Of a stretch of DNA of 64,000 nt, positions 6,529 to 24,262 are shown piece after piece. Every line of letters begins with the position of its first letter. Within the stretch, counting starts at the first letter, position 1. The notes beneath the pieces are model-generated. The model did no database searches and was not told the origin of the DNA. It was given only the letters and a program-made list of their open reading frames with translations. The translations under genes and the position numbers were made by a program. Source of the stretch: Nocardia sp. NBC_00403 (GTDB lineage: Bacteria > Actinomycetota > Actinomycetes > Mycobacteriales > Mycobacteriaceae). The stretch is taken from the NCBI RefSeq assembly GCF_036046055.1, contig NZ_CP107939.1, positions 558,001-622,000 of the forward strand, read 5' to 3'.

Positions 6529-6562
6529 GTGCGCCACTCCTGTCGCTTAGCTGCCACGGTTC

Positions 6563-6584
6563 GGGTGCGGGCGTTCCCGCACCC
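6563..6584 (-). promoter_or_regulatory. Perfect 9-bp hairpin in the fgd upstream region
   Basis: GGGTGCGGG (6563-6571) and CCCGCACCC (6576-6584) flank the 4-base loop CGTT, 35 bases before the fgd start on the minus strand. No U-tract follows in the fgd direction. It could be a 5'-UTR structure or an operator; the sequence alone cannot say which. Confidence 0.4.
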
Positions 6585-6737
6585 CGCTTCGGCCGTATCA
6601 ACGCTTCATCGTGTCGCGATAGTCCGCGTCGCGGCACGACGGTCCTCCGCGTTTCAGACGGCCGTCCTCGACCATAGTCAGCGACCGACCCCGATGTGTG
6701 CGGGGTCGTACCGCGTCGATCCCTTACCCACGATCAC

Positions 6738-6970
6738 CTGGACAGGCGACTGCTTCGCCTTCGCTCAGCCGGCGCAAGCGACTGCTTCGCGTTCACTCAG
6801 CCCAGGCGCAAACAGCTGCCTCACGTTCACACAGCCCAGGCGCAAACAGCTGCCTCACGTTCACACAGCCCAGGCGCAAACAGCTGCCTCACGTTCACAC
6901 AGCCCAGGCGCAAACAGCTGCCTCACGTTCACACAGCCCAGGCGCAAACAGCTGCCTCGCCTCAGCTCAG
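6738..6970. repeat. 34-bp tandem repeat array (4 perfect copies plus degenerate flanks)
   Basis: Four identical 34-base units start at 6801, 6835, 6869 and 6903. A fifth (6937-6970) matches for its first 22 bases and then drifts, and about two decayed units precede at 6738-6800. Each unit begins CCCAGGCGCAAACAGCTG and contains the palindrome CAGCTG. The period is not a multiple of three, so all frames through it are rotating shadows. It fills the space between divergently transcribed fgd and the HAD phosphatase gene. There are no variable spacers, so it is not CRISPR; it is a minisatellite-like (VNTR) array. Confidence 0.9.
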
Positions 6971-7026
6971 CCCGATGCAAGCGGCTACAGACTTCGTCCG
7001 GCTGCGCCATAGTGGACAATTGACCG

Positions 7027-7824
7027 GTGACCGCCATTGACGAGCCCATCCTGTCCTATCTCACCGACATGGACGGCGTGCTGGTGCACGAGGACCACAT
7101 GATCCCGGGCGCGGACAAGTTCCTGGCAGAGCTGCGGTCCAACGAGATCCCGTTCCTGGTGCTCACCAACAACTCGATCCGCACCCCGCGTGACCTGCAG
7201 GCCCGGCTGCGCCACACCGGATTGGATATTCCGGAAGAGGCTATCTGGACCTCCGCCCTGGCCACCGCCACCTTCCTCAATGACCAGCGCCCGAACGGAA
7301 CCGCCTATGTCGTCGGCGAATCCGGGCTCACCACGGCGCTGCACGAGATCGGCTACGTGCTGACCGACAGCGATCCCGACTATGTCGTGCTCGGCGAGAC
7401 CCGCACGTACTCCTTCGAGGCGATCACCACCGCCATCCGCCTTGTCGACCGCGGCGCCCGGTTCATCGCCACCAACCCGGACCCGACCGGCCCTTCCCGC
7501 GACGGCCTGCTGCCTGCCACCGGCTCGGTCGCCGCCCTGATCACTCGCGCGACCGGCCGCGACCCCTACTACGTCGGCAAGCCGAACTCGCTGATGATGC
7601 GGTCGGCCCTGCGCCGCATCGGCGCCCACTCCCAGTCCACCGTGATGATCGGCGACCGAATGGACACCGACGTCATCTCCGGACTCGAGGCGGGTATGCG
7701 AACCATCCTCGTCACCACCGGCATCTCCACCCGCGCCTCGGTAGAGCAATTCCCCTACCGCCCGACCCTGGTCGTCGATTCGGTCGCGGACCTGGTCGGC
7801 CATACCAGCACGCCTTTCGACTAG
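7027..7824 (+). CDS. HAD-superfamily (class IIA, NagD-like) phosphatase
   Basis: 265 residues with the complete HAD motif set: DMDGV with Asp14 nucleophile and Asp16 acid/base, LVLTNNS for motif II, the GKPN lysine for motif III, and GDRMDTD for motif IV. The insertion between motifs II and III is of the C2 cap type shared by NagD and p-nitrophenylphosphatase-like enzymes. GTG at 7027 is the only start that keeps motif I at its usual distance. The likely role is dephosphorylation of a small sugar or nucleotide phosphate in the cytoplasm; the substrate cannot be inferred. The upstream 34-bp array may contain its promoter. Confidence 0.92.
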   Translation: MTAIDEPILSYLTDMDGVLVHEDHMIPGADKFLAELRSNEIPFLVLTNNSIRTPRDLQARLRHTGLDIPEEAIWTSALATATFLNDQRPNGTAYVVGESGLTTALHEIGYVLTDSDPDYVVLGETRTYSFEAITTAIRLVDRGARFIATNPDPTGPSRDGLLPATGSVAALITRATGRDPYYVGKPNSLMMRSALRRIGAHSQSTVMIGDRMDTDVISGLEAGMRTILVTTGISTRASVEQFPYRPTLVVDSVADLVGHTSTPFD

Positions 7825-7890
7825 CCCCTGCACCAGCGTCACCCTCGCGACAGTGCGGGTCCCACCAGCGATGTTCGTCATACTGACATC

Positions 7891-8304
7891 ATGGAAACCT
7901 GGTTCGACGCAGCACGTGCGGCGGAGACCGGCCATGACTGGGATGCAGCGATCTCCGCAGTCAGCGCTGTTGCCGAGTGCTACAGCGCAGACCATAACCG
8001 GCACGATGCGCATCTGTGGCACATGGATCTACTCGTGAAAGCGAGACGCCTCGACGAGCTAGCCACGCGGGGTGAGACCGACGTCCACGCGCGGCGCAGG
8101 CTGGACCGGTTCCTGTACGAGGACAGTCGCGACCGCGATCTCCGGCAACGGGCCCAGCATGGGGACAAGACCACGCTGTACTTGCTCGTGAAGCTGCTTT
8201 GCCAGCGAGAGGAGCAAGCCGCTGCTCAGCAGGTGGTAGCCGAAATTGATGGCACCGATGAATACGCGCTGGGCCTGGCGAGACAGCGGCTGACCGACAT
8301 ATAG
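7891..8304 (+). CDS. Small helical protein of unknown function
   Basis: 137 residues from ATG 7891, predominantly alpha-helical with repeated Ala-rich segments (ETGHDWDAAISAVSAVAECY, LVKLLCQREEQAAAQQVV) that resemble tetratricopeptide-type helix pairs. No catalytic motif, signal peptide or membrane segment is visible. It follows the phosphatase by 66 bases and is convergent with the MarR gene. I do not recognise the family; a small TPR-like adaptor is a guess from composition only. Confidence 0.65.
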   Translation: METWFDAARAAETGHDWDAAISAVSAVAECYSADHNRHDAHLWHMDLLVKARRLDELATRGETDVHARRRLDRFLYEDSRDRDLRQRAQHGDKTTLYLLVKLLCQREEQAAAQQVVAEIDGTDEYALGLARQRLTDI

Positions 8305-8418
8305 CACACAAACCGCACGTCAGTGTTGATCAGGACTTCGAACATCGACAGCTTCCGGTCCGGCGGGCGAGGTGTCGTCACCCAGCGGTCAGGAATCCCC
8401 GAGATCTGGTCGGCGCGA

Positions 8419-8874
8419 TCAGGATTCGGTGTCGGTGATGGCGTCGAGGGCGGCGGACAAGGTGGTCAGCACATCCACCGTCAGGGCGAATTTTTCGGGG
8501 CCGAGTTCGGCCGCCAGTCGCTGTGCCATCACGGCGTGATGGGGGTTGATGCGCTTGATGGCGTCGCGACCGGCGTCGGTGGGCGCCACCAGTTTCGCGC
8601 GGCGGTGAGCGGGGTTCGGGCGGTATTCGGCAAGTCCCTTGTCCACCAACAGATCCGCGATGCGCTGCACGCTCTGGCGGGTAATGCCCATCGCCCTGGC
8701 GATGCCCGCCACCGGAAGCGGTTCGCGCAGCACCGCCCCGAGCACTTGCCACCAGGCCGCAGTAATGCCCCCGGGCTGGGCGAGTTCTTCTGCGATCGTG
8801 AGGAATTGGCCGTTGAGCCGGAACGAGGTGATGGCGGCGGTGCTGAAGAGTTCCTGTTCAGGTGTGTCACTCAT
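8419..8874 (-). CDS. MarR-family transcriptional regulator
   Basis: 151 residues with a typical winged helix: ITRQSVQRIADLLVDKGL as recognition helix and wing approach, followed by NPAHRRAKLVAPTDAGRDAI, the canonical MarR D-x-R-R-A/K-x-x-x-L-T wing. GGAGGG lies just upstream of ATG 8874. It is the second gene after the DJ-1/PfpI gene on the same strand, 108 bases apart, so the pair probably forms one autoregulated operon controlled from the double palindrome at 9624-9663. The effector is unknown. Confidence 0.92.
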   Translation of the reverse strand: MSDTPEQELFSTAAITSFRLNGQFLTIAEELAQPGGITAAWWQVLGAVLREPLPVAGIARAMGITRQSVQRIADLLVDKGLAEYRPNPAHRRAKLVAPTDAGRDAIKRINPHHAVMAQRLAAELGPEKFALTVDVLTTLSAALDAITDTES

Positions 8875-8982
8875 GCCGAGCAGCCCTCCTGTGCCGCACG
8901 GCTTTCGATGCCGGGCATGCCACCTCCTCGATGTGGATCGTCGGCGATCCGACCGTTCGATCGGATCGCCGTGGATTGTCCC

Positions 8983-9624
8983 TCAGTGGGAGGTTCCCGC
9001 CATCTGCGCCTCGTATTCGGCGAGCACGGCATAGCCTGCCGGATCGCTGTGCGCATAGAGCCGGTACCAGCCGTCGAGCACGTGCGGCTCGTACACACCG
9101 AGCCTGCCCAGCACCTCGCGGGCGAACTCGAAGGGTGCGGTGCCGCTCGCGGTGATCAGATCGCCGTCGGTCACCGCAGGCTCGTTCACGTAGCGGTCGC
9201 CGCCCGAATATCCGCTGTAGGCAAGGAATTCCGCGACATTACTGGTGTGCGCGCGAGTGTCGAGCAGACCCTCCTTCGCCAGCCCGAAGGTGGCGCCACA
9301 GATGCCCGCGACCGGCACACCCGCATCGAGGAACGCCCCGGCCAGCCGCGCGAACGGGGCAAGTTCACCCGTAACCCACGTATCCGCGCCGGGCAGGATC
9401 AGCATCGCGCTGTCAGCGGGGGCGAGATCGGCGATCGCCACATCCGGCACAATCCGCACCCCGCCCATTGTGGTGATCGGATCCATGGTCAGCCCGACCG
9501 TCTTGACCTGGAACTTTCCGGGCTCTTTATGCCAGGCGTGCTTGTTGATGTGCGCAGTGGCGGCACCAACCTCCCAGTCGGCGAGAGTGTCGTAAACGGC
9601 CATGTGAACTGTTTGCGTGGGCAT
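8983..9624 (-). CDS. DJ-1/PfpI-family protein (class I glutamine amidotransferase-like)
   Basis: 213 residues with the flavodoxin-like DJ-1/PfpI fold. The nucleophile elbow AGICGAT places Cys109, and Glu18 in DWEVG matches the acid that polarises the cysteine in this family. The pattern resembles the YdeA/YoaZ branch, whose members act as glyoxalase III, peptidase-like or chaperone proteins in stress responses. The ATG at 9624 lies inside the first of two palindromic operators and has no Shine-Dalgarno sequence, so the message may be leaderless; ATG at 9603 is an alternative. Co-directional with the MarR gene downstream. Confidence 0.88.
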   Translation of the reverse strand: MPTQTVHMAVYDTLADWEVGAATAHINKHAWHKEPGKFQVKTVGLTMDPITTMGGVRIVPDVAIADLAPADSAMLILPGADTWVTGELAPFARLAGAFLDAGVPVAGICGATFGLAKEGLLDTRAHTSNVAEFLAYSGYSGGDRYVNEPAVTDGDLITASGTAPFEFAREVLGRLGVYEPHVLDGWYRLYAHSDPAGYAVLAEYEAQMAGTSH

Positions 9625-9663
9625 GACAGTATGCTGTCACATTTGACAGGATGCTGTCAAATG
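9624..9663. promoter_or_regulatory. Tandem palindromic operators for the DJ-1/marR operon
   Basis: Two copies of TGACAG-N4-CTGTCA occur: 9624-9639 and, extended to 10-bp arms (CATTTGACAG GATG CTGTCAAATG), 9640-9663. The TGACAG half-sites start exactly 20 bp apart, about two helical turns, so two dimers would bind the same face. The first site covers the DJ-1 start codon. MarR proteins bind palindromes of this size; assigning this one to the neighbouring regulator is inference. Confidence 0.75.
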
Positions 9664-9747
9664 AAGCGCTGCCCGCACTACACCCAACTCGACGCGCTCG
9701 GACCGGCAGGGGCACTACCTTCGGGATGGCTCGGTCCATGTGCATGT

Positions 9748-10284
9748 TCAGCTGTGGTCGCGTGTAGTGGCAGAGCGGAGTGCCTCTGTTCGGAGCCGGA
9801 AAGGCGCGGCGCCTGCGGGGTTGAGGAGAACATCGGCGCCAGACGGGATGATGTCGGGGAGTGCGCTGCCGTGAACCGGGATCCACTGGTCGACATCGAG
9901 GTGGGCCTTCTGTAGTTCGGCGGTGGCGACGACAACACAGGGTGTGCTGTCGGGGGCGGTGCCCAGCAGCGGCTGACCGTGTACGTCGCAGCCGATTTCC
10001 ACGATCGCGTCACGCACGGCGGCGACGAGTTCGGTGCGAGGCTGCTGTCCTTCAGCGATCAGGCGCAGTACCGCGTCGATAGGATCGGTCGGCACGGTGG
10101 GTGCGCTGGGGCGGTAGCGTGGATTCGGCCGGAACGGCCCAGTGCCACCATTATCGTGTAGCTCCCACCCGCCCACGATGACCTCCACGGGCGGGGATGC
10201 GGTCGGATCGCCCTGATTCCAGCCGGGATCGACCAACACGAACCAGTTGTTGTGCCGGACAGCTTCCGGTGGCGGATTCCCCAC
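9748..10284 (-). CDS. Type VII secretion-associated family protein, copy A
   Basis: 178 residues from GTG 10284 (AAGGA about 9 bases upstream). It is clearly paralogous to the product of 22209-22742, sharing NNWFVLVDPGWN, VGGW, GPFRPNPRYRP, DPIDAVLRLIAEG, VVEIGC-like, CVVVATAELQK and a terminal LNPAGAAPFRL. From memory this matches small actinobacterial proteins annotated as type VII secretion system-associated, often next to genes with a lone conserved cysteine. It is divergent from such a gene here (10509). There is no signal peptide or membrane segment. A role as chaperone, adaptor or immunity partner of the neighbour is plausible but unproven. Confidence 0.75.
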   Translation of the reverse strand: MGNPPPEAVRHNNWFVLVDPGWNQGDPTASPPVEVIVGGWELHDNGGTGPFRPNPRYRPSAPTVPTDPIDAVLRLIAEGQQPRTELVAAVRDAIVEIGCDVHGQPLLGTAPDSTPCVVVATAELQKAHLDVDQWIPVHGSALPDIIPSGADVLLNPAGAAPFRLRTEALRSATTRDHS

Positions 10285-10469
10285 AGCTCATCGTCCTTAC
10301 CTCGGTTCCATGCCTTGTACCGCCACTGTCTCATGACACCGCCCTCCGATCCGGACGGATCACTGCGAAGCCCACCGTGGGACGGTCGCCCGGCCAGACT
10401 CCAACACTGACTCACAGCGTCCGCCCGAACCTTTGCGCAGGTAACCTGTGACGATGTTGGTTAGATGCC

Positions 10470-10487
10470 CCGGGATTTCTATCCCGG
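10470..10487. promoter_or_regulatory. Perfect inverted repeat before the His/Cys gene, copy A
   Basis: CCGGGAT (10470-10476) and ATCCCGG (10481-10487) flank TTCT, 22 bases before the ATG at 10509. It could be an operator or an mRNA hairpin near the ribosome-binding region, which itself is poor here. Confidence 0.35.
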
Positions 10488-10508
10488 TGCGGGACGCGGC
10501 GCGAGGCG

Positions 10509-11396
10509 ATGGCTAGCACAGGAGCGGCTCGACTGATGGTCGAGGCAACCGAGTCGATCACACGATTACTCAAAGACGGCGCTCATACCATCAACAACCG
10601 GGTCGGGGTCAATGGGTTCGCAGGCGAACTCGACAACGCCGGGAGGACCCTTACGAACGGCGACGGCGCCAGCGTGAGTGTTCTCAATCGTTACAGCTTC
10701 AGCTTGCAGGACGACCAGGGCGTTGCACATCACATCCACGACATACGCGTCATTCCCCTGGTGGATCACGAAGGGAATACATTCGGAATTTCCTTCCCAA
10801 CCAAGAAAGGCGCAACAGAGAACGATCTTTCCGGGGACAAGAAATACTACGAGACATGGTCACGGATGCCGGATCGGCTGAGTGACAGCGAATACTACCC
10901 CGTGCGTCGTGTCGACCCAGGCGACGGGAGCGACCCCGATTGGAAAGATGCCGGGCCTTCTCAGCCCGCACCCTGGGCCGATGACGCCAGGGAGGGGATG
11001 CTTTACGTGCACGCGCACGGACGCCCAGAGGGAATCGAGATCGATGCCAATTTCGGTGACGATGCCAACCCCGACTGGCAAACTGTGGGGATTCCTGGGG
11101 GTTTCTTCGGGCAATTGGTTGCGGCAAATTTGGATTTCCAATCCGCTTCCCGTGCAGGACCAAATAAACCGCTGATGATGCTGGTCTGCGAGGGGGACGC
11201 TCACGTCCAGCAGGTAGCAGGGGCCATTCACAGCGCGGGCATGAACCACGATGTTTGGGCCACGGTCGGTGTCAATCAGGCGCGCTTCACCGAGCGGAAA
11301 GGAACCGCGGAATTGGGTGCGGAGATACCGGACGGCGGCGCGCCCTCCGATCCCATCACCGTCATCCGAGCGCCGAACCGCCCACCCACAACATAA
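10509..11396 (+). CDS. His/Cys protein of the lone-cysteine type VII-linked family, copy A
   Basis: 295 residues. The C-terminal half is homologous to the product of 21200-22183. Shared landmarks are a strand ending EGNTFGISFP, then MLYVHAHG with His170, and PLMMLVCEGD with Cys227 followed by a helix and DVWATVGV. The spacing and sequence around His and Cys recall the His and Cys dyad of caspase/CHAT-like folds; this similarity is my reading, not an established assignment. The N-terminal 50 residues are helical and have no signal peptide. Start is uncertain: ATG 10509 has a poor ribosome-binding site and ATG 10536 has GGAG 11 bases upstream. It is divergent from the type VII-associated partner and followed by an integrase fragment. 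Confidence 0.7.
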   Translation: MASTGAARLMVEATESITRLLKDGAHTINNRVGVNGFAGELDNAGRTLTNGDGASVSVLNRYSFSLQDDQGVAHHIHDIRVIPLVDHEGNTFGISFPTKKGATENDLSGDKKYYETWSRMPDRLSDSEYYPVRRVDPGDGSDPDWKDAGPSQPAPWADDAREGMLYVHAHGRPEGIEIDANFGDDANPDWQTVGIPGGFFGQLVAANLDFQSASRAGPNKPLMMLVCEGDAHVQQVAGAIHSAGMNHDVWATVGVNQARFTERKGTAELGAEIPDGGAPSDPITVIRAPNRPPTT

Positions 11397-11436
11397 CGAG
11401 ACCGGTTACCCAACGAGTGGTAGCGCCTTTTTCGCG

Positions 11437-11785
11437 TCACTGCCGCCGCTTGCGGGCGGCCAGGTTGGTACTGGCCTGCCATCGGATCAGAGCCTCCGCC
11501 GACGGGCGGGCGTATTTGCCGAGCGAGCGCACCGAAGCGTGCCCGCTCATGCGCATCAGCATCGGCGTGGACGCCCCGTCCTCTGCGGCATGCGTGAGTC
11601 GTCTGTGCCGGAGTTGATACAAGGTGAATGGCCGCGACCGAAGCCGCCGGTACGGCATGGTGCTCGAACAGCTCGGCCGCTCGCCGGTACGACAACCGGC
11701 CGCGCAACGTCCACGGGTCGATATCGTCGACGGCCGCACCAGGTTTCGCCTCCCGTTGGATTCTTCGGCATGCCGCCGACCTTCT
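11437..11785 (-). pseudogene. Tyrosine recombinase (phage-type integrase) remnant
   Basis: The minus strand encodes the C-terminal catalytic part of a tyrosine recombinase in two frames. One frame gives DDIDPWTLRGRLSYRRAAEL; after a frameshift near 11640 the other gives FTLYQLRHRRLTHAAEDG, MSGHASVRSLGKYARP and a basic end at 11437. The LRH arginine/histidine box, the GHxSxxSL-type box and the KYAR tyrosine are recognisable, but the N-terminal DNA-binding domain is missing and the frame is broken. This is a decayed integrase next to the accessory genes at 9.7-11.4 kb. Confidence 0.75.
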
Positions 11786-18999: not shown

Positions 19000-19009
19000 T
19001 ACCATCCTC

Positions 19010-19051
19010 GAGCGCGTGAACCGTTGCCTGCCAAGCTTGTTGATTTTCACG
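19010..19051. repeat. 42-bp duplicate of the 3' part of the DUF456 gene
   Basis: Bases 19010-19051 match 20050-20091 at 38 of 42 positions, both starting GAGCGCGTGAA. In the DUF456 gene the segment encodes LRENQQAWQATVHAL on the minus strand. At 19010 it sits just upstream of the DUF6188 start, so a piece of the DUF456 gene was left there by recombination. Confidence 0.8.
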
Positions 19052-19164
19052 GAGGCGACTGCCGGACCCGGAAAGTCGAGCAGCAACGCGGGGCCTCGAC
19101 ACGCCAGTCGCAGTTCGTGACCTGTGGTTGCGGACAATCGAGCTGGACTGCCGTCGTTGCGTCT

Positions 19165-19962: not shown

Positions 19963-20445
19963 CTACGTCACTATCGCGCCGATAACCCAGACTCCCGTCG
20001 CCAGCAGCGCCCCGAACAACTCGATCAGCATAGAAAGACCGACACCCTTGAGCGCGTGAACTGTTGCCTGCCAAGCCTGTTGGTTCTCACGCAGACGCTG
20101 AAGCTCCGAAAGATAGACACCGAGAACGAAACCCACGAACAAGCCGACCACCGGGATCACGAAAAAGCCGACGATGCCCAGGACCGCCCCGACGAAGAGA
20201 GCCCGGTTCGAGACACCCGCGTCCTTCATCTTCTGGCCCGGCCAGGTGTATTTGATGATGCCGGACAACACGAGGAACGCGGTGCTGACAGCGAAAACGG
20301 TCCACGCGGTAGCACCGCCCTCGACGAACGCCCAGACCGCGATCGCACCGAAGATCAGGATGACACCGGGAAGTATCGGGACGATTATCCCCAACAGCCC
20401 CACCAGAATTACCAGGCCGACAACGACCTCACCCCACATGCTCAC
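19963..20445 (-). CDS. DUF456 family membrane protein
   Basis: 160 residues from GTG 20445, with GGAGGG 7 bases upstream. It has four to five hydrophobic helices: VVVGLVILVGLLGIIVPILP, VILIFGAIAVWAFV, FAVSTAFLVLSGII, the second IVGFFVIPVVGLFVGFVLG, and a C-terminal MLIELFGALLATGVWVIGAI. The first segment with G-L-x-G-x-x-x-P-x-L-P is the DUF456 hallmark. Function is unknown. Parts of this gene are duplicated on both sides: its 3' segment at 19010-19051 and its 5' end at 22793-22890. Confidence 0.88.
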   Translation of the reverse strand: MSMWGEVVVGLVILVGLLGIIVPILPGVILIFGAIAVWAFVEGGATAWTVFAVSTAFLVLSGIIKYTWPGQKMKDAGVSNRALFVGAVLGIVGFFVIPVVGLFVGFVLGVYLSELQRLRENQQAWQATVHALKGVGLSMLIELFGALLATGVWVIGAIVT

Positions 20446-20510
20446 TGCTGGTCCCTCCGGTAGTGGCGTCGTGTCACGCTGCCTGGATTCTGGCGTATCG
20501 GCTGGTTCCG
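20414..20510. repeat. ~97-bp direct repeat, left copy
   Basis: Matches 22793-22890 except for one inserted C and one G/C change. It covers the ribosome-binding site and first codons of the DUF456 gene plus about 65 bases upstream. Together the two copies bracket the His/Cys plus type VII-associated pair (copy B). Confidence 0.92.
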
Positions 20511-20652
20511 TGCACGAGGTAGGTGCCGGACGGGGTTGTTTGGGTGTCGAGCGCCAATGGGCACGGGGTACCGCGAATCTCGCTACCGAGCCAGAGGGCC
20601 GCACGCACCTTGGCCCAACGTTCTTTCCTCGTTCCAGGAGAGATGGCGATCG

Positions 20653-20892
20653 CTAGCGGCGCAGGAGGTCCACGATGCCGGTGTTCGACTCATTCCCGCC
20701 GCCCTCGGCGACCCGGCGCTCCATCAGAGCCATGAAGGGCGTGAGGAGTTCGGGGCTGACGCCCTGTTCGGCGGCGATACGCAGCAACGCCCCGCGCGGT
20801 CGAATTGCGTTGATAGCGAGCACTATTCCCAGAACCAGGAAAGCGCTGATGGGCCAGTAACCTTGGTTCGTCGCCCACCTCGAGTGGTGCAG
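20653..20892 (-). pseudogene. C-terminal remnant of a small membrane protein
   Basis: The minus frame ending at TAG 20653 reads YWPISAFLVLGIVLAINAIR, then a helix ALLRIAAEQGVSPELLTPF and a polar tail NTGIVDLLRR. This is convincing coding sequence with one transmembrane helix. Upstream the frame meets a stop at 20893 without any ATG, GTG or TTG before the membrane helix, so the N-terminus is missing. A GTG inside the helix (about 20823) could only give a truncated product. Probably a gene cut by the rearrangement that inserted the neighbouring cassette. A longer minus frame from 21229 reaches this region in another phase, so a frameshifted full gene is also possible. Confidence 0.5.
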
Positions 20893-21199
20893 TTACGACC
20901 GCGACAAAGGAGTCCGGTGTGGATGTTTGGTTCGCCGCCCATCCCGGGCTCGGCGCGCGTTGGCGGCCGAGCAGGCTTGGATCCCCGAGATATCGATGCG
21001 CCATGCGACTGAGCGAAAGAACTACGTCTGGCGATCGCACAGACCGGGACAGTGACAGCTCGGGAAATGCATCCAGGGACACCCCATCGCCCCGGGCCGA
21101 GCGCACACATTCCAGTCCCTCGACCAAGGGTCGTAGCGTCGCCGTGACGAGCGACAGAATTGCTGCCGCAGCGGATGCCCTCGAGAAGTAGCCGACCTG

Positions 21200-22183
21200 A
21201 TGATGCAGGCTCGTCAGCTGCTCGTTCATCTGACACGGCAGGTCGCCGAAGCTACCGAGCAGGGCGCCCGAGCTGTCCGTGCGAGGTTTCGCGAAGGCGC
21301 CGCACGGATTCGCGCTGCGGCGGACGCGTTCACTAGGGCGGATGGAAGATATGCCACCCGTGTCCTGGAGGAAGACGACATCCCCGCAGGCGAAACAGAT
21401 TTCCTAGGCTGGGACGACCGCGGAAATGTATGGGCTTTCACCCCGGATCACGTCCGGTCCAGATTGCTGCGAAACTATGATGGAAAACCGATCGGTGTCC
21501 AGTATCCGTCCAAACCATTCGATTCTATGGTCGGCAAAATCTGGTCCAGGTCGAAGTATCGGCACACCGATTTCGAGTATTTCATCGACGATGACGTCGA
21601 ATCCTCCACAATGCGTTTCAAACGGCGTTCACCTCTGCGCGAGCCACCATGGGTCCGCATCAGTTCTGATTACCAGCACTTTTCCCCCCGCGCGCGTACG
21701 AACCCGGTGTACGTGGATGCGCACGCGAATGGTTCCGCCTTCCTCGTCCGAATCAAGACCGGCAGGTTTTCTTCTGCGGTAGTGGACCTAAATGGCACCG
21801 ATTTCGCTCGCCTCAACGTAGCCAACAACCATTTCAATCGAGCATTGTCGGAGAATCGGGACACAAAAGCATTGGTACTCGTTGCGTGCGAGTCGGCGTC
21901 TTATTTTCATTCCTTGAGCTATGCCAGTAAGAAGTTCGCCAATTACTTGCAAAACGAGGCCGGTCTGGATATCGATGTGTTCGGTGCCACCGGACCCGTA
22001 GCCACACCGCCAACCATGTGGCCAGCATTCTTGCGATCTTCAGAACTGGGCGTGAGCCTTCCCGGAGGCGTAGACAGTACTGAGCCGGCTTGGATACGAC
22101 ACACGGTGCAAGGCCAGGACATCCCCATTTGGGCCCGCAACTCACCACCTGAAGGCCGTACCGCCGATAACGACTACTTGTAG
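21200..22183 (+). CDS. His/Cys protein of the lone-cysteine type VII-linked family, copy B
   Basis: 327 residues. The N-terminal 45 residues form an Ala/Arg-rich amphipathic helix. The core matches copy A: YDGKPIGVQYPSKP, then PVYVDAHANGSAFLV with His175, TKALVLVACESASYF with Cys230, a helix, and DIDVFGATGPV. The His-...-Cys arrangement with A-C-E-S resembles CHAT/caspase-like cysteine peptidases by eye only. No clear ribosome-binding site precedes 21200. A GTG-started segment just upstream (21144-21191) would extend the helix if one base were skipped. The type VII-associated partner follows after 25 bases and is surely co-transcribed. Confidence 0.7.
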   Translation: MMQARQLLVHLTRQVAEATEQGARAVRARFREGAARIRAAADAFTRADGRYATRVLEEDDIPAGETDFLGWDDRGNVWAFTPDHVRSRLLRNYDGKPIGVQYPSKPFDSMVGKIWSRSKYRHTDFEYFIDDDVESSTMRFKRRSPLREPPWVRISSDYQHFSPRARTNPVYVDAHANGSAFLVRIKTGRFSSAVVDLNGTDFARLNVANNHFNRALSENRDTKALVLVACESASYFHSLSYASKKFANYLQNEAGLDIDVFGATGPVATPPTMWPAFLRSSELGVSLPGGVDSTEPAWIRHTVQGQDIPIWARNSPPEGRTADNDYL

Positions 22184-22208
22184 CCACAATCTGATCGGAG
22201 GAATCTCG

Positions 22209-22742
22209 ATGGACCAACCGATACCCAAGACGGTCATCCAGCAGGGCGACTGGTTCGTGCTGCCGGCCCCCTCCTGGAACCCCGATGGTCCTTCAGCGAC
22301 CCCTCCCCCAGAAGCGACGGTCGGCGGCTGGATGGTGGAAGTAGACGGCACAATCGGCCCTTTCGAGCCGAACCCGGGCTACTTGCCCGCGGACGACTCC
22401 ACACCGAGCGATCCGATCGATGCGATGCTGCGACTCATCGCTGCCGGGGAGAAACTCGGCGACGAACTCGTCGCGATGATCTGCCACTCGGTCGTGGAAA
22501 TCGGCTGCGGCGACGACGATCTCCCGCTCATCGGCGCTGCGCCGGACGGCGCACCGTGCGTAGTGGTCGCAACCGCGGCGGTACAGAAGCGAACAGTGGA
22601 CGTTGACCGCTGGATGCTCATGGTGGGCAGCGATCTTCCGAGGATCGTTCCTCGGGGCGTCGACATCATGCTCAACCCGAGCGGCGTAGCTCCGTTCCGG
22701 CTGCTCATCAACACCATGCGCGGCGATCCCGCGACGTCGTGA
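22209..22742 (+). CDS. Type VII secretion-associated family protein, copy B
   Basis: 177 residues from ATG 22209 with a strong GGAGG (22198-22202). Paralogue of the 9748-10284 product, with the same order of landmarks: GDWFVLPAPSWNP, VGGW, GPFEPNPGYLP, DPIDAMLRLIAAGE, VVEIGC, APDGAPCVVVATAAVQK, DVDRWM and LNPSGVAPFRL. It lies 25 bases after the His/Cys gene in the same direction, while copy A is divergent. The constant pairing with different gene orientation suggests the two products function together. A chaperone or immunity role is inference. Confidence 0.78.
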   Translation: MDQPIPKTVIQQGDWFVLPAPSWNPDGPSATPPPEATVGGWMVEVDGTIGPFEPNPGYLPADDSTPSDPIDAMLRLIAAGEKLGDELVAMICHSVVEIGCGDDDLPLIGAAPDGAPCVVVATAAVQKRTVDVDRWMLMVGSDLPRIVPRGVDIMLNPSGVAPFRLLINTMRGDPATS

Positions 22743-22792
22743 CCTGGTGAAGTCCTCCAGCTCGCTGAGGATGCGGTGCAGTCGATCCAGGT

Positions 22793-22890
22793 AGGCCGAC
22801 AACGACCTCACCCCCACATCCTCACTGCTGGTCCCTCCGGTAGTGGCGTCGTGTCACGCTGCCTGGATTCTGGCGTATCGGCTGGTTCCG
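22793..22890. repeat. ~98-bp direct repeat, right copy
   Basis: Near-identical to 20414-20510. Here the copied DUF456 start codons run straight into a stop, so this is a dead duplicate of that gene's 5' end, marking the right edge of the cassette. Confidence 0.92.
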
Positions 22891-22891
22891 C

Positions 22892-23053
22892 GCAGAGGCG
22901 GCCGACGTCAGCACCACCGTTGCCGAGGCCGAGCGCTTGGGCGCAAAGGTATTGGTGCCGCCCACGACGAACGAATCCGGCTTGGCCCTCGCTCAGCCCG
23001 CAGACACCTCGGGCAAGCAATTAGCTACCTTTACCTCGCCGCCGGCGGCCTAA
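22892..23053 (+). pseudogene. C-terminal fragment of a VOC/glyoxalase-family protein
   Basis: In the frame ending TAA 23051-23053 the segment reads VSTTVAEAERLGAKVLVPPT and closes LATFTSPPAA. The pattern helix, G-A-x-V-x-x-P-P, then a final strand is the second half of a vicinal-oxygen-chelate module. Only about 53 codons remain and the left side abuts the direct repeat exactly, so the gene was cut at the repeat junction. Confidence 0.6.
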
Positions 23054-23234
23054 GCCCTCGTGGTGGTGCGCCGTGATGCGGCGCACCACCCCCCGCGAAG
23101 TCGTGTACGAAGGCGGACAGTTCGTCGGTGTCGAGGGCGGCCAGCAGGCAGGTGGTCGCCCGAGCCGTTTTGTCGGCGAACTCGGGGTCCTTGCCCGCGT
23201 TCCAGGTCTTGGTTTCCTGACGTTCGGCTAAACA
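23034..23234 (-). pseudogene. Possible IS630-type transposase fragment
   Basis: The minus frame between stops at 23235 and 23031 reads RQETKTWNAGKDPEFADKTAR, in which T-K-T-W-x-x-x-x-D-P-x-F-x-x-K is a pattern seen in IS630-family transposases of actinobacteria, then LLAALDTDELSAFVHDF. There is no start codon and the region overlaps a terminator hairpin. The identification rests on about 20 residues and is weak. Confidence 0.3.
23062..23090. terminator. Perfect 11-bp hairpin
   Basis: GGTGGTGCGCC (23062-23072) and GGCGCACCACC (23080-23090) flank 7 bases, 8 bases after the VOC fragment stop. It is a likely terminator of the lost glyoxalase gene. Confidence 0.65.
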
Positions 23235-23320: not shown

Positions 23321-24262
23321 ATGCAGCGATCCACTCTCTACCATGCGCTCGCGGTCACCGTGACCGCCGTCGTCGCAGCCACCGGCGCGCATCTCATTGC
23401 CGGATGCGGCACTGCGTCGTCACAGCCGTGGCCCGGTAGCGGTAGCGCCGAGCAGTTCACCCTTGCCGCAGACAAGTCGGGGCACCGATGGGCGTCCGCC
23501 GCGTCCGCCACCGTAACGCCCGGGGTGCAGACCAACACCGAGGGTGCGAGACAGTGCACCGCGAACTACACCTTCGTCGACGATGCCGGCAACGTGTACC
23601 TCGGTCAGGCCGCGCACTGTGCGGGTACGGGTATCGGCGACCTGAAAGACCCCGACGGCTGCACCGCCAACAGCCTCCCCCTCGGCACCGCGGTAACCTT
23701 CAACCGCGGCGGCATACTGATTTTCCCGGGTGAGGTCGTCGGCACCGGTCATCTGGTCTATAGCAGCTGGCTGGCCATGCAGCAGAACGGCGAACACGAC
23801 CACAATACCTGCGCCTACAACGATTTCGCGTTGGTGAAGGTCGCCCCCGAGGACGTCAGCAAGGTCAACCCGACCGTGCCGTACTGGGGTGGTCCCGTCG
23901 GCATCAACACCACCGGAACCGGCACCGGTGACCGCGTTTACGGCTACGGCAACTCCGGCCTGCGGTTCGGAATCGCCGAACTGTCCCCTCGGACCGGCCA
24001 GAGCAAGGCCGACGGGCTTGTTACCGCCGGTTGGACACACGCGCTGACCGTGACCATGCCAGGGATACCCGGCGACAGCGGCAGCGCCTTCCTCGACCGC
24101 AACGGCTATGCCGTCGGCACGCTATCGACTCTGGGCATCGGTTTGCCGATCGTCAACAACATCGGTGACCTGAGCCACGAACTTGCTTACGCCCGAGCAC
24201 ATTCCGGCATCTCGGGACTCTCGCTGGTCCTCGGCACCGAACCGTTCGACCCGAACCGCTGA
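23321..24262 (+). CDS. Exported trypsin-like serine protease, probable lipoprotein
   Basis: 313 residues. A signal peptide leads to a lipobox-like LIAGCG with Cys29, so the protein is probably anchored to the outer face of the membrane. The chymotrypsin-fold triad is intact: His99 in GQAAHC, Asp168 in NDFALVKV and Ser253 in GIPGDSGSAF. Extra Cys residues (QCTANY, DGC, NTC) could form disulfides. Closest in style to the secreted S1 proteases found across Nocardia and Streptomyces. AAAGGGAA lies upstream of ATG 23321. It stands alone at the right border of the accessory island. Confidence 0.88.
   Translation: MQRSTLYHALAVTVTAVVAATGAHLIAGCGTASSQPWPGSGSAEQFTLAADKSGHRWASAASATVTPGVQTNTEGARQCTANYTFVDDAGNVYLGQAAHCAGTGIGDLKDPDGCTANSLPLGTAVTFNRGGILIFPGEVVGTGHLVYSSWLAMQQNGEHDHNTCAYNDFALVKVAPEDVSKVNPTVPYWGGPVGINTTGTGTGDRVYGYGNSGLRFGIAELSPRTGQSKADGLVTAGWTHALTVTMPGIPGDSGSAFLDRNGYAVGTLSTLGIGLPIVNNIGDLSHELAYARAHSGISGLSLVLGTEPFDPNR

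Follow-up and report, generated by a model that had tools for sequence, protein, structure and literature searches.

Two LARGE/SMALL gene pairs in a Nocardia genome

The 64,000-nt stretch of Nocardia sp. NBC_00403 analyzed here (contig NZ_CP107939.1, positions 558,001 to 622,000, hereafter the window; the genome is a single contig of 8.7 Mb) carries two copies, A and B, of a gene pair encoding a protein with a His/Cys motif, which we call LARGE, and a partner of NCBIfam family NF033532, which we call SMALL. In pair B, LARGE-B (21200-22183, + strand) encodes 327 aa, a predicted clan CD cysteine peptidase with a caspase fold resembling C80 cysteine protease domains, with an N-terminal helix at residues 2-51 and the codons of His175 and Cys230 at 21722-21724 and 21887-21889. 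It is followed on the + strand by SMALL-B (22209-22742), a "type VII secretion system-associated" protein that is likely its inhibitor or immunity partner. Pair A consists of LARGE-A (10509-11396, + strand; 295 aa), a second, diverged copy with His170 and Cys227, and of SMALL-A (9748-10284, − strand), an NF033532 protein whose gene is divergent from that of LARGE-A.

LARGE-A and LARGE-B share 23% identity over most of their length (E = 8e-10), with His170/Cys227 in register with His175/Cys230, while SMALL-A and SMALL-B are 51% identical and score 144.8 and 127.1 bits against NF033532, both above its curated cut-off of 85 bits. These alignments and scores, together with four further pairs in the genome, bear out the initial annotation of the window, which had read the two loci as diverged copies of one two-protein pair, divergent in A and co-directional in B (as coordinates and strands confirm), and had placed the small protein in an annotated type VII-associated family. 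Genome-wide, each of six SMALL copies is adjoined by a LARGE, and a seventh LARGE is an orphan; one of the paired LARGE copies (locus L012, 13596-14615) lacks both the His and the Cys. That no EsxA/B is encoded nearby, as had also been remarked, is true of the window: among the 18 WXG100 matches in the genome, the closest lies about 405 kb away, and the type VII secretion genes that are present, at three EccD loci, are more than 1.6 Mb distant. Another pair of the genome, at 8582045-8583581, has a WXG100 match about 20 kb off (G000:C1:8603759-8603980; 31.9 bits, in a 473-codon frame).

Predicted fold of LARGE and its His/Cys dyad

For the AlphaFold model of LARGE, the leading structural matches (Foldseek rows 1 to 9 and VIA-align rows 1 to 15) all belong to clan CD, headed by C80 cysteine protease domains, and later rows include helix-only and unrelated chains. 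In the model, His175 lies at the end of a predicted strand (170-176) and Cys230 just after another (224-228). LARGE is thus predicted to adopt a clan CD (caspase-like) fold with a His175/Cys230 catalytic dyad, in line with the caspase/CHAT-like layout first proposed for it, and the His and Cys singled out at that time prove to be a conserved pair that is nearly always lost jointly. We rejected LARGE as a CHAT protease or a plain C80 member, because no match to CHAT (PF12770) was found in LARGE-A or LARGE-B at an E value of 1 or in 43 members at 0.1, and because the C80 score is below the Pfam cut-off. PDB sequence searches (queries A1 to A4) gave helix matches as their best rows (apolipoprotein A-IV, E = 0.0086; a designed coiled coil, E = 0.61), and the rows for SMALL were at chance level, with one weak DUF4347 stretch (E = 1.4).

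The C80 domains of MARTX and large clostridial toxins, which are the top structural matches of LARGE and are domains of giant proteins, have a basic pocket for inositol hexakisphosphate and carry the His ahead of the Cys, an order that LARGE shares. LARGE differs from them in falling below the Pfam cut-off and in being a standalone small gene with a partner. Its alignment as a whole also shows no conserved basic cluster that might suggest an inositol-phosphate site: only four columns are at least 60% Lys or Arg (positions 14, 38, 186, and 313), and these are unclustered. CHAT proteases share the clan CD fold, and a CHAT protein neighbors SMALL domains fused to TPR proteins at two loci (L053 and L055, where it lies upstream), whereas LARGE has no PF12770 match and its structural match to CHAT is weaker than that to C80.

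In an alignment of 43 LARGE sequences, all rows have Gly99 and Trp151, and 40 rows have His175 and Cys230; the three exceptions have lost both residues, with the same replacements (Val and Asp). We further surveyed 150 Nocardia genomes, among them a set of 59 that was also analyzed separately; 15 LARGE and 23 SMALL first-look candidates were scored per genome, and the LARGE counts are therefore lower bounds. Among the 86 standalone LARGE listed, 84 could be scored, with both residues in 66, neither in 16, and only the His or only the Cys in one each. Joint loss seems to have occurred several separate times, since the 16 dyad-less copies carry different replacements (Lys/Arg with Gln in four; Glu, Thr, Ala, Asp, or Pro with Gly in seven; Val, Thr, or Ala with Asp in four; and Asp with His in one), and such joint loss fits the prediction of a working catalytic pair. 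Copies without His and Cys that keep much of the domain, with no SMALL found nearby, are L062, L066, L067, L068, L069, L207, L217, L235-L238, L240, and L241.

Genomic contexts of LARGE and SMALL

In Nocardia, full-length SMALL is rarely found without LARGE. In the set of 59 genomes, a LARGE is located within 2 kb of 17 of the 18 SMALL that exceed the cut-off (the exception being in G002), and in the 150 genomes 47 of 50 close full-length SMALL lie within 3 kb of one, with a median gap of 69 nt and a chance expectation of 0.18. Two diverged full-length SMALL (G002 and G516; E of about 1e-12) have no LARGE near, and with them the figure becomes 47 of 52, with nine fragments set apart. Seen from the other gene, a complete SMALL lies within 3 kb of 42 of the 86 listed standalone LARGE, a fragment near 4, and none near 40. 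The claim that the partner always co-occurs therefore comes close to the truth for SMALL and does not hold for LARGE, although some of the unpaired copies of either kind may be misses. At SMALL-profile loci in named genomes, a LARGE domain is present at 32 of 45.

The two genes occur in every relative arrangement: in a set of 35 pairs (6 from this genome and 29 from elsewhere, with L021, L032, and L056 excluded as broken or giant), SMALL precedes LARGE in 16 and follows it in 8, and 8 pairs are divergent and 3 convergent. LARGE-LARGE and SMALL-SMALL protein distances correlate across these pairs (r = 0.68), as they do after dereplication to 23 pairs (r = 0.32, P = 0.003). Natural joined proteins account for 3 of 129 scanned, with incomplete LARGE parts: P0088 has SMALL at 1-174 followed by a partial LARGE at 195-414, and P0100 and P0120 have a LARGE piece ahead of SMALL. 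No third gene is a fixed partner, as only SMALL and LARGE recur widely among the predicted neighbors at L016 to L049. Candidates present in at least three loci that we set aside are recombinases (L024, L029, L030), a synteny group (L016, L019, L025, L028), an ABC-type ATPase (L023, L033, L037), and a gene upstream of TPR-SMALL fusions (L038, L044, L048). The trypsin-like gene directly after pair B (23321-24262; Trypsin_2, E = 0.0015, below cut-off) was likewise rejected as a partner, having no relative among the neighbor frames of the compared loci outside its own. A single-sequence scan of genome contigs with SMALL-B gave no match, and a protein search with query A3 gave six matches, none of them new.

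LARGE also occurs inside open frames of 2,311 to 28,643 codons in at least 17 Nocardia genomes. Five of these giants lie near a full-length SMALL and carry arrays of LARGE domains in their C-terminal stretch (12 in G484, 12 in G527, 5 in G479, 5 in G544, and 9 in G534), with His and Cys kept in all 43 repeats; in each, a LARGE domain comes last, at the end of the frame or close to it, and SMALL lies downstream within about 100 nt. At L052 of Saccharopolyspora kobensis, LARGE ends a protein with a WXG-like N terminus (WXG100_2, 24.3 bits, below the cut-off of 27), and SMALL is the next gene. The toxin-cassette layout of a C-terminal tip on a long protein followed by a partner gene is thus seen in the five giants and at L052, and that of a standalone toxin with its partner in the 42 listed LARGE with a complete SMALL. 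In the giants at L074 (1-6126) and L075 (4905-19898), which have no SMALL, LARGE is also C-terminal, after a LuxR-type helix-turn-helix and an M3 peptidase domain. The longest frame (G538 contig 1, about 557000-611000; 28,643 codons) would be a very long bacterial protein if it is one gene, and frames of 13,548 to 15,216 codons are found in G484, G527, G023, and G540. After SMALL at L052 lies a WXG-like RHS-repeat protein (6561-11720) with a YwqJ-like deaminase end (25.7 bits; cut-off, 25.9).

The 13 SMALL loci without LARGE show other contexts. SMALL is the C-terminal domain of TPR proteins at L035, L038, L044, L053, and L055 and of a STAND-NTPase-TPR protein at L051, and L048 holds a frame of similar appearance. 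L058 and L059 lie beside frames of at least 1,745 codons, L057 has four SMALL and a long frame whose whole-sequence match to LARGE is weak (E = 1e-8), and L060 has a weak fragment; L037 and L050 complete the set.

The presence of SMALL tends to follow the state of the dyad in LARGE. Of the LARGE copies that have a complete SMALL alongside, 38 keep both residues and 3 keep neither; of those without SMALL, 25 keep both and 12 neither (Fisher's exact test, P = 0.008, leaving out one Cys-only, one His-only, and two unscored copies and four with SMALL fragments). The link between dyad loss and SMALL absence persists after collapsing at 50, 40, and 35% identity (P = 0.013, 0.011, and 0.023, with fragments scored as no SMALL and anything but both residues scored as lost). 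A dyad-less LARGE should not need SMALL if SMALL acts to restrain the enzyme, and an immunity role for SMALL is somewhat better supported than a chaperone role. The proposal of an effector or protease with its chaperone or immunity partner stands in outline, through the giants whose C-terminal LARGE arrays have SMALL behind them, with immunity somewhat ahead of the chaperone.

Direct repeats flank pair B (20414-20519 and 22793-22898; 96.3% identity over 107 columns), and the span originally singled out, 20414-22890, matches them. Both copies consist of the 5' end and upstream region of a DUF456 gene (19963-20439, − strand; PF04306, E = 1e-36; start inferred from the sequence at MWGEVVV), the likely neighbor of the pair B insertion. 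The left copy looks native, because two relatives conserve it along with the DUF456 gene (query 670-1216 in G009 and 674-1203 in G005). The first pair at L012 is bounded by a 401-nt repeat (91.5%) over part of a gene read as GntR-type, and the second by a 163-nt repeat (84.7%); the latter is weaker evidence and may be older than the insertion, since the flanking gene from which it derives has internal repeats. Direct repeats above 150 bits are thus found at three of the six pairs of this genome, the other three having at most 32 bits, and none of 159 control spans reaches 60. GC content at third codon positions (GC3) is 0.56 to 0.79 in all 13 genes of the set, versus a mean of 0.86 (minimum, 0.80) in 15 hand-picked neighbors. 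Five candidate integrase or resolvase matches, picked by eye, lie at pair A, L013, L022, L024, and L030; the one beside pair A (11437-11739, − strand) is likely a C-terminal fragment of a tyrosine integrase (PF00589, E = 7.3e-5, profile positions 125-170 of 172; 23.0 bits, below the cut-off of 27.1). Taken together, repeats, low GC3, and these matches make entry of the pairs by recombination likely.

Proposed role of the pairs, alternative readings, and neighboring features

The passages of PMC3482391 (2012) that deal with caspase-like domains describe them as releasing peptidases or C-terminal toxins of polymorphic toxins, found in arrays within giant proteins and in standalone cassettes that unite a toxin tip with an immunity gene; arrays there lie upstream of another toxin domain, with some repeats lacking catalytic residues, and the immunity families given with Tox-Caspase are Imm36 and Imm57. 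LARGE resembles Tox-Caspase, as portrayed in those passages, in its predicted caspase-like fold with His and Cys, in its internal or C-terminal position in large actinobacterial proteins, including ones linked to the type VII secretion system (T7SS), in its arrays, and in its small cassettes of putative toxin tip and immunity gene. It differs in having an NF033532 partner instead of Imm36 or Imm57 and in an array that is C-terminal-most in five giants, where every repeat keeps both residues. SMALL is a member of NF033532 (lone7para_assoc) by the curated cut-off, a family whose name states no function, whereas the present data connect it with one particular predicted peptidase. Pairing of NF033532 proteins with a caspase-fold protease was not found in a literature search judged by titles and the beginnings of abstracts, nor were "Lonely Cys domain" and NF033532 in the literature searched.

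With moderate confidence, we read the pairs as standalone cassettes of the polymorphic-toxin type, in which a predicted caspase-fold cysteine peptidase (LARGE) is combined with a likely inhibitor or immunity protein (SMALL). In giant exported proteins, LARGE would serve as toxin tip or processing head, cleaving proteins of a rival cell when carried by such a giant and those of the host if left unchecked. SMALL, made alongside it, would bind and silence the peptidase until use. The standalone pairs would serve as cassettes, stored or mobile, comparable to the spare warheads of a bacterial weapon, and would enter genomes as a unit through recombination or integrase activity.

A number of observations weigh against this reading. 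LARGE-B scores 20.5 bits against Pfam C80 (PF11713), below the cut-off of 23.8, and 1 of the 43 members matched at E = 0.1. The joint dyad losses and their association with SMALL rest on related sequences counted without a tree, and three dead LARGE copies, one of them in this genome, retain SMALL. Nearly half of the listed standalone LARGE stand without SMALL, and of these 40 copies 25 keep His and Cys; they may have some other partner or a SMALL farther away. Of the at least 17 genomes whose giant frames contain LARGE, only 5 have SMALL adjoining the giant. The distance correlation is absent within the six pairs of this genome (r = 0.01, not significant), and SMALL has diverged less than LARGE (median identity, 47% versus 24%), which is unusual for a dedicated immunity protein. 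Standalone LARGE shows no enrichment of WxG or YxxxD/E motifs (3 and 5 of 43 versus 3.5 and 4.2 in shuffles), for which reason we rejected a T7SS signal on it, and no hydrophobic segment. Repeats of at least 80 bits are found at none of 34 loci elsewhere, and 14 of 400 mixed control spans reach that score, 11 of them in L052, L057, and L095, where paralogs of toxin or SMALL genes occur. Relatives of SMALL in other actinobacteria are found next to long or T7SS-type proteins whose C-terminal ends differ, and also as parts of TPR and STAND proteins, and for this reason the role of SMALL may be broader than that of a LARGE partner.

A rival view, in which SMALL is a chaperone or export adaptor, passing LARGE and other T7SS cargo to the type VII machine, and not an inhibitor, draws on these last contexts. 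As read by eye, the proteins next to SMALL relatives have unlike ends (ADP-ribosyltransferase-like at L094 and L095) or, at L081 and L100, are WXG-looking, and both the conservation of SMALL and the three EccD loci of the genome would agree with an export function. We nevertheless regard it as unlikely, given that standalone LARGE bears no T7SS signal, that the loss of His and Cys accompanies the loss of SMALL, which a pure export role does not predict, and that the strings of SMALL genes at L057 and L078 resemble the immunity-gene strings described in the relevant passages of PMC3482391. An intracellular conflict module for cell death or anti-phage defense, with LARGE as caspase-like executioner and SMALL as sensor-side regulator, appears improbable: neither window pair has a PADLOC match, by which we rejected a known anti-phage system, LARGE arrays in giants are followed by SMALL, LARGE also ends a protein with a WXG-like N terminus, and among the fused loci, not all of which were scanned for it, CHAT is found at two.

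A very improbable alternative is that the standalone copies are relics, autoprocessing domains cut loose from the giants, with most cassettes silent or decaying. Such an origin would suit the position of pair B between duplicated and, as read by eye, truncated gene pieces, the low GC3, the 16 of 84 scored copies among the matches listed that lack both catalytic residues, and the stops or frame breaks in several. Against it stand the 66 that keep His and Cys despite large divergence and the full-length SMALL that nearly always adjoins LARGE, which is why many standalone copies seem, by these sequence patterns, to be under selection. Returning to the toxin-cassette reading, a wider version of it is possible, if doubtful: SMALL might be a general inhibitor or gatekeeper of actinobacterial caspase-fold proteases, at work next to secreted protease toxins, downstream of giants with up to a dozen intact heads, and, built in as a domain, within TPR and STAND proteins, some of these near CHAT proteases, with the pair spreading as a mobile cassette and SMALL acting as a bacterial functional counterpart of caspase inhibitors.

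With these results, a widely annotated family whose name gives no function gains a testable job, that of partner, and likely inhibitor, of a caspase-fold peptidase, and small standalone pairs are linked to giants whose ends hold as many as twelve intact copies of that predicted protease. The question raised for polymorphic toxins, whether a caspase-like domain is a processing peptidase or a warhead, thereby becomes directly testable with a small, self-contained gene pair.

Some minor features surround pair B. At 20639-20789, up to 150 nt show 79 to 91% identity to at least five relatives and form a piece of another gene. A remnant at 22895-23057 resembles, as read by eye, the 3' end of a glyoxalase-family gene. 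Finally, a 55-nt direct repeat (85%) at 19003-19057 and 20043-20097, inside and beside the DUF456 gene, is perhaps a second, decayed DUF456 copy.

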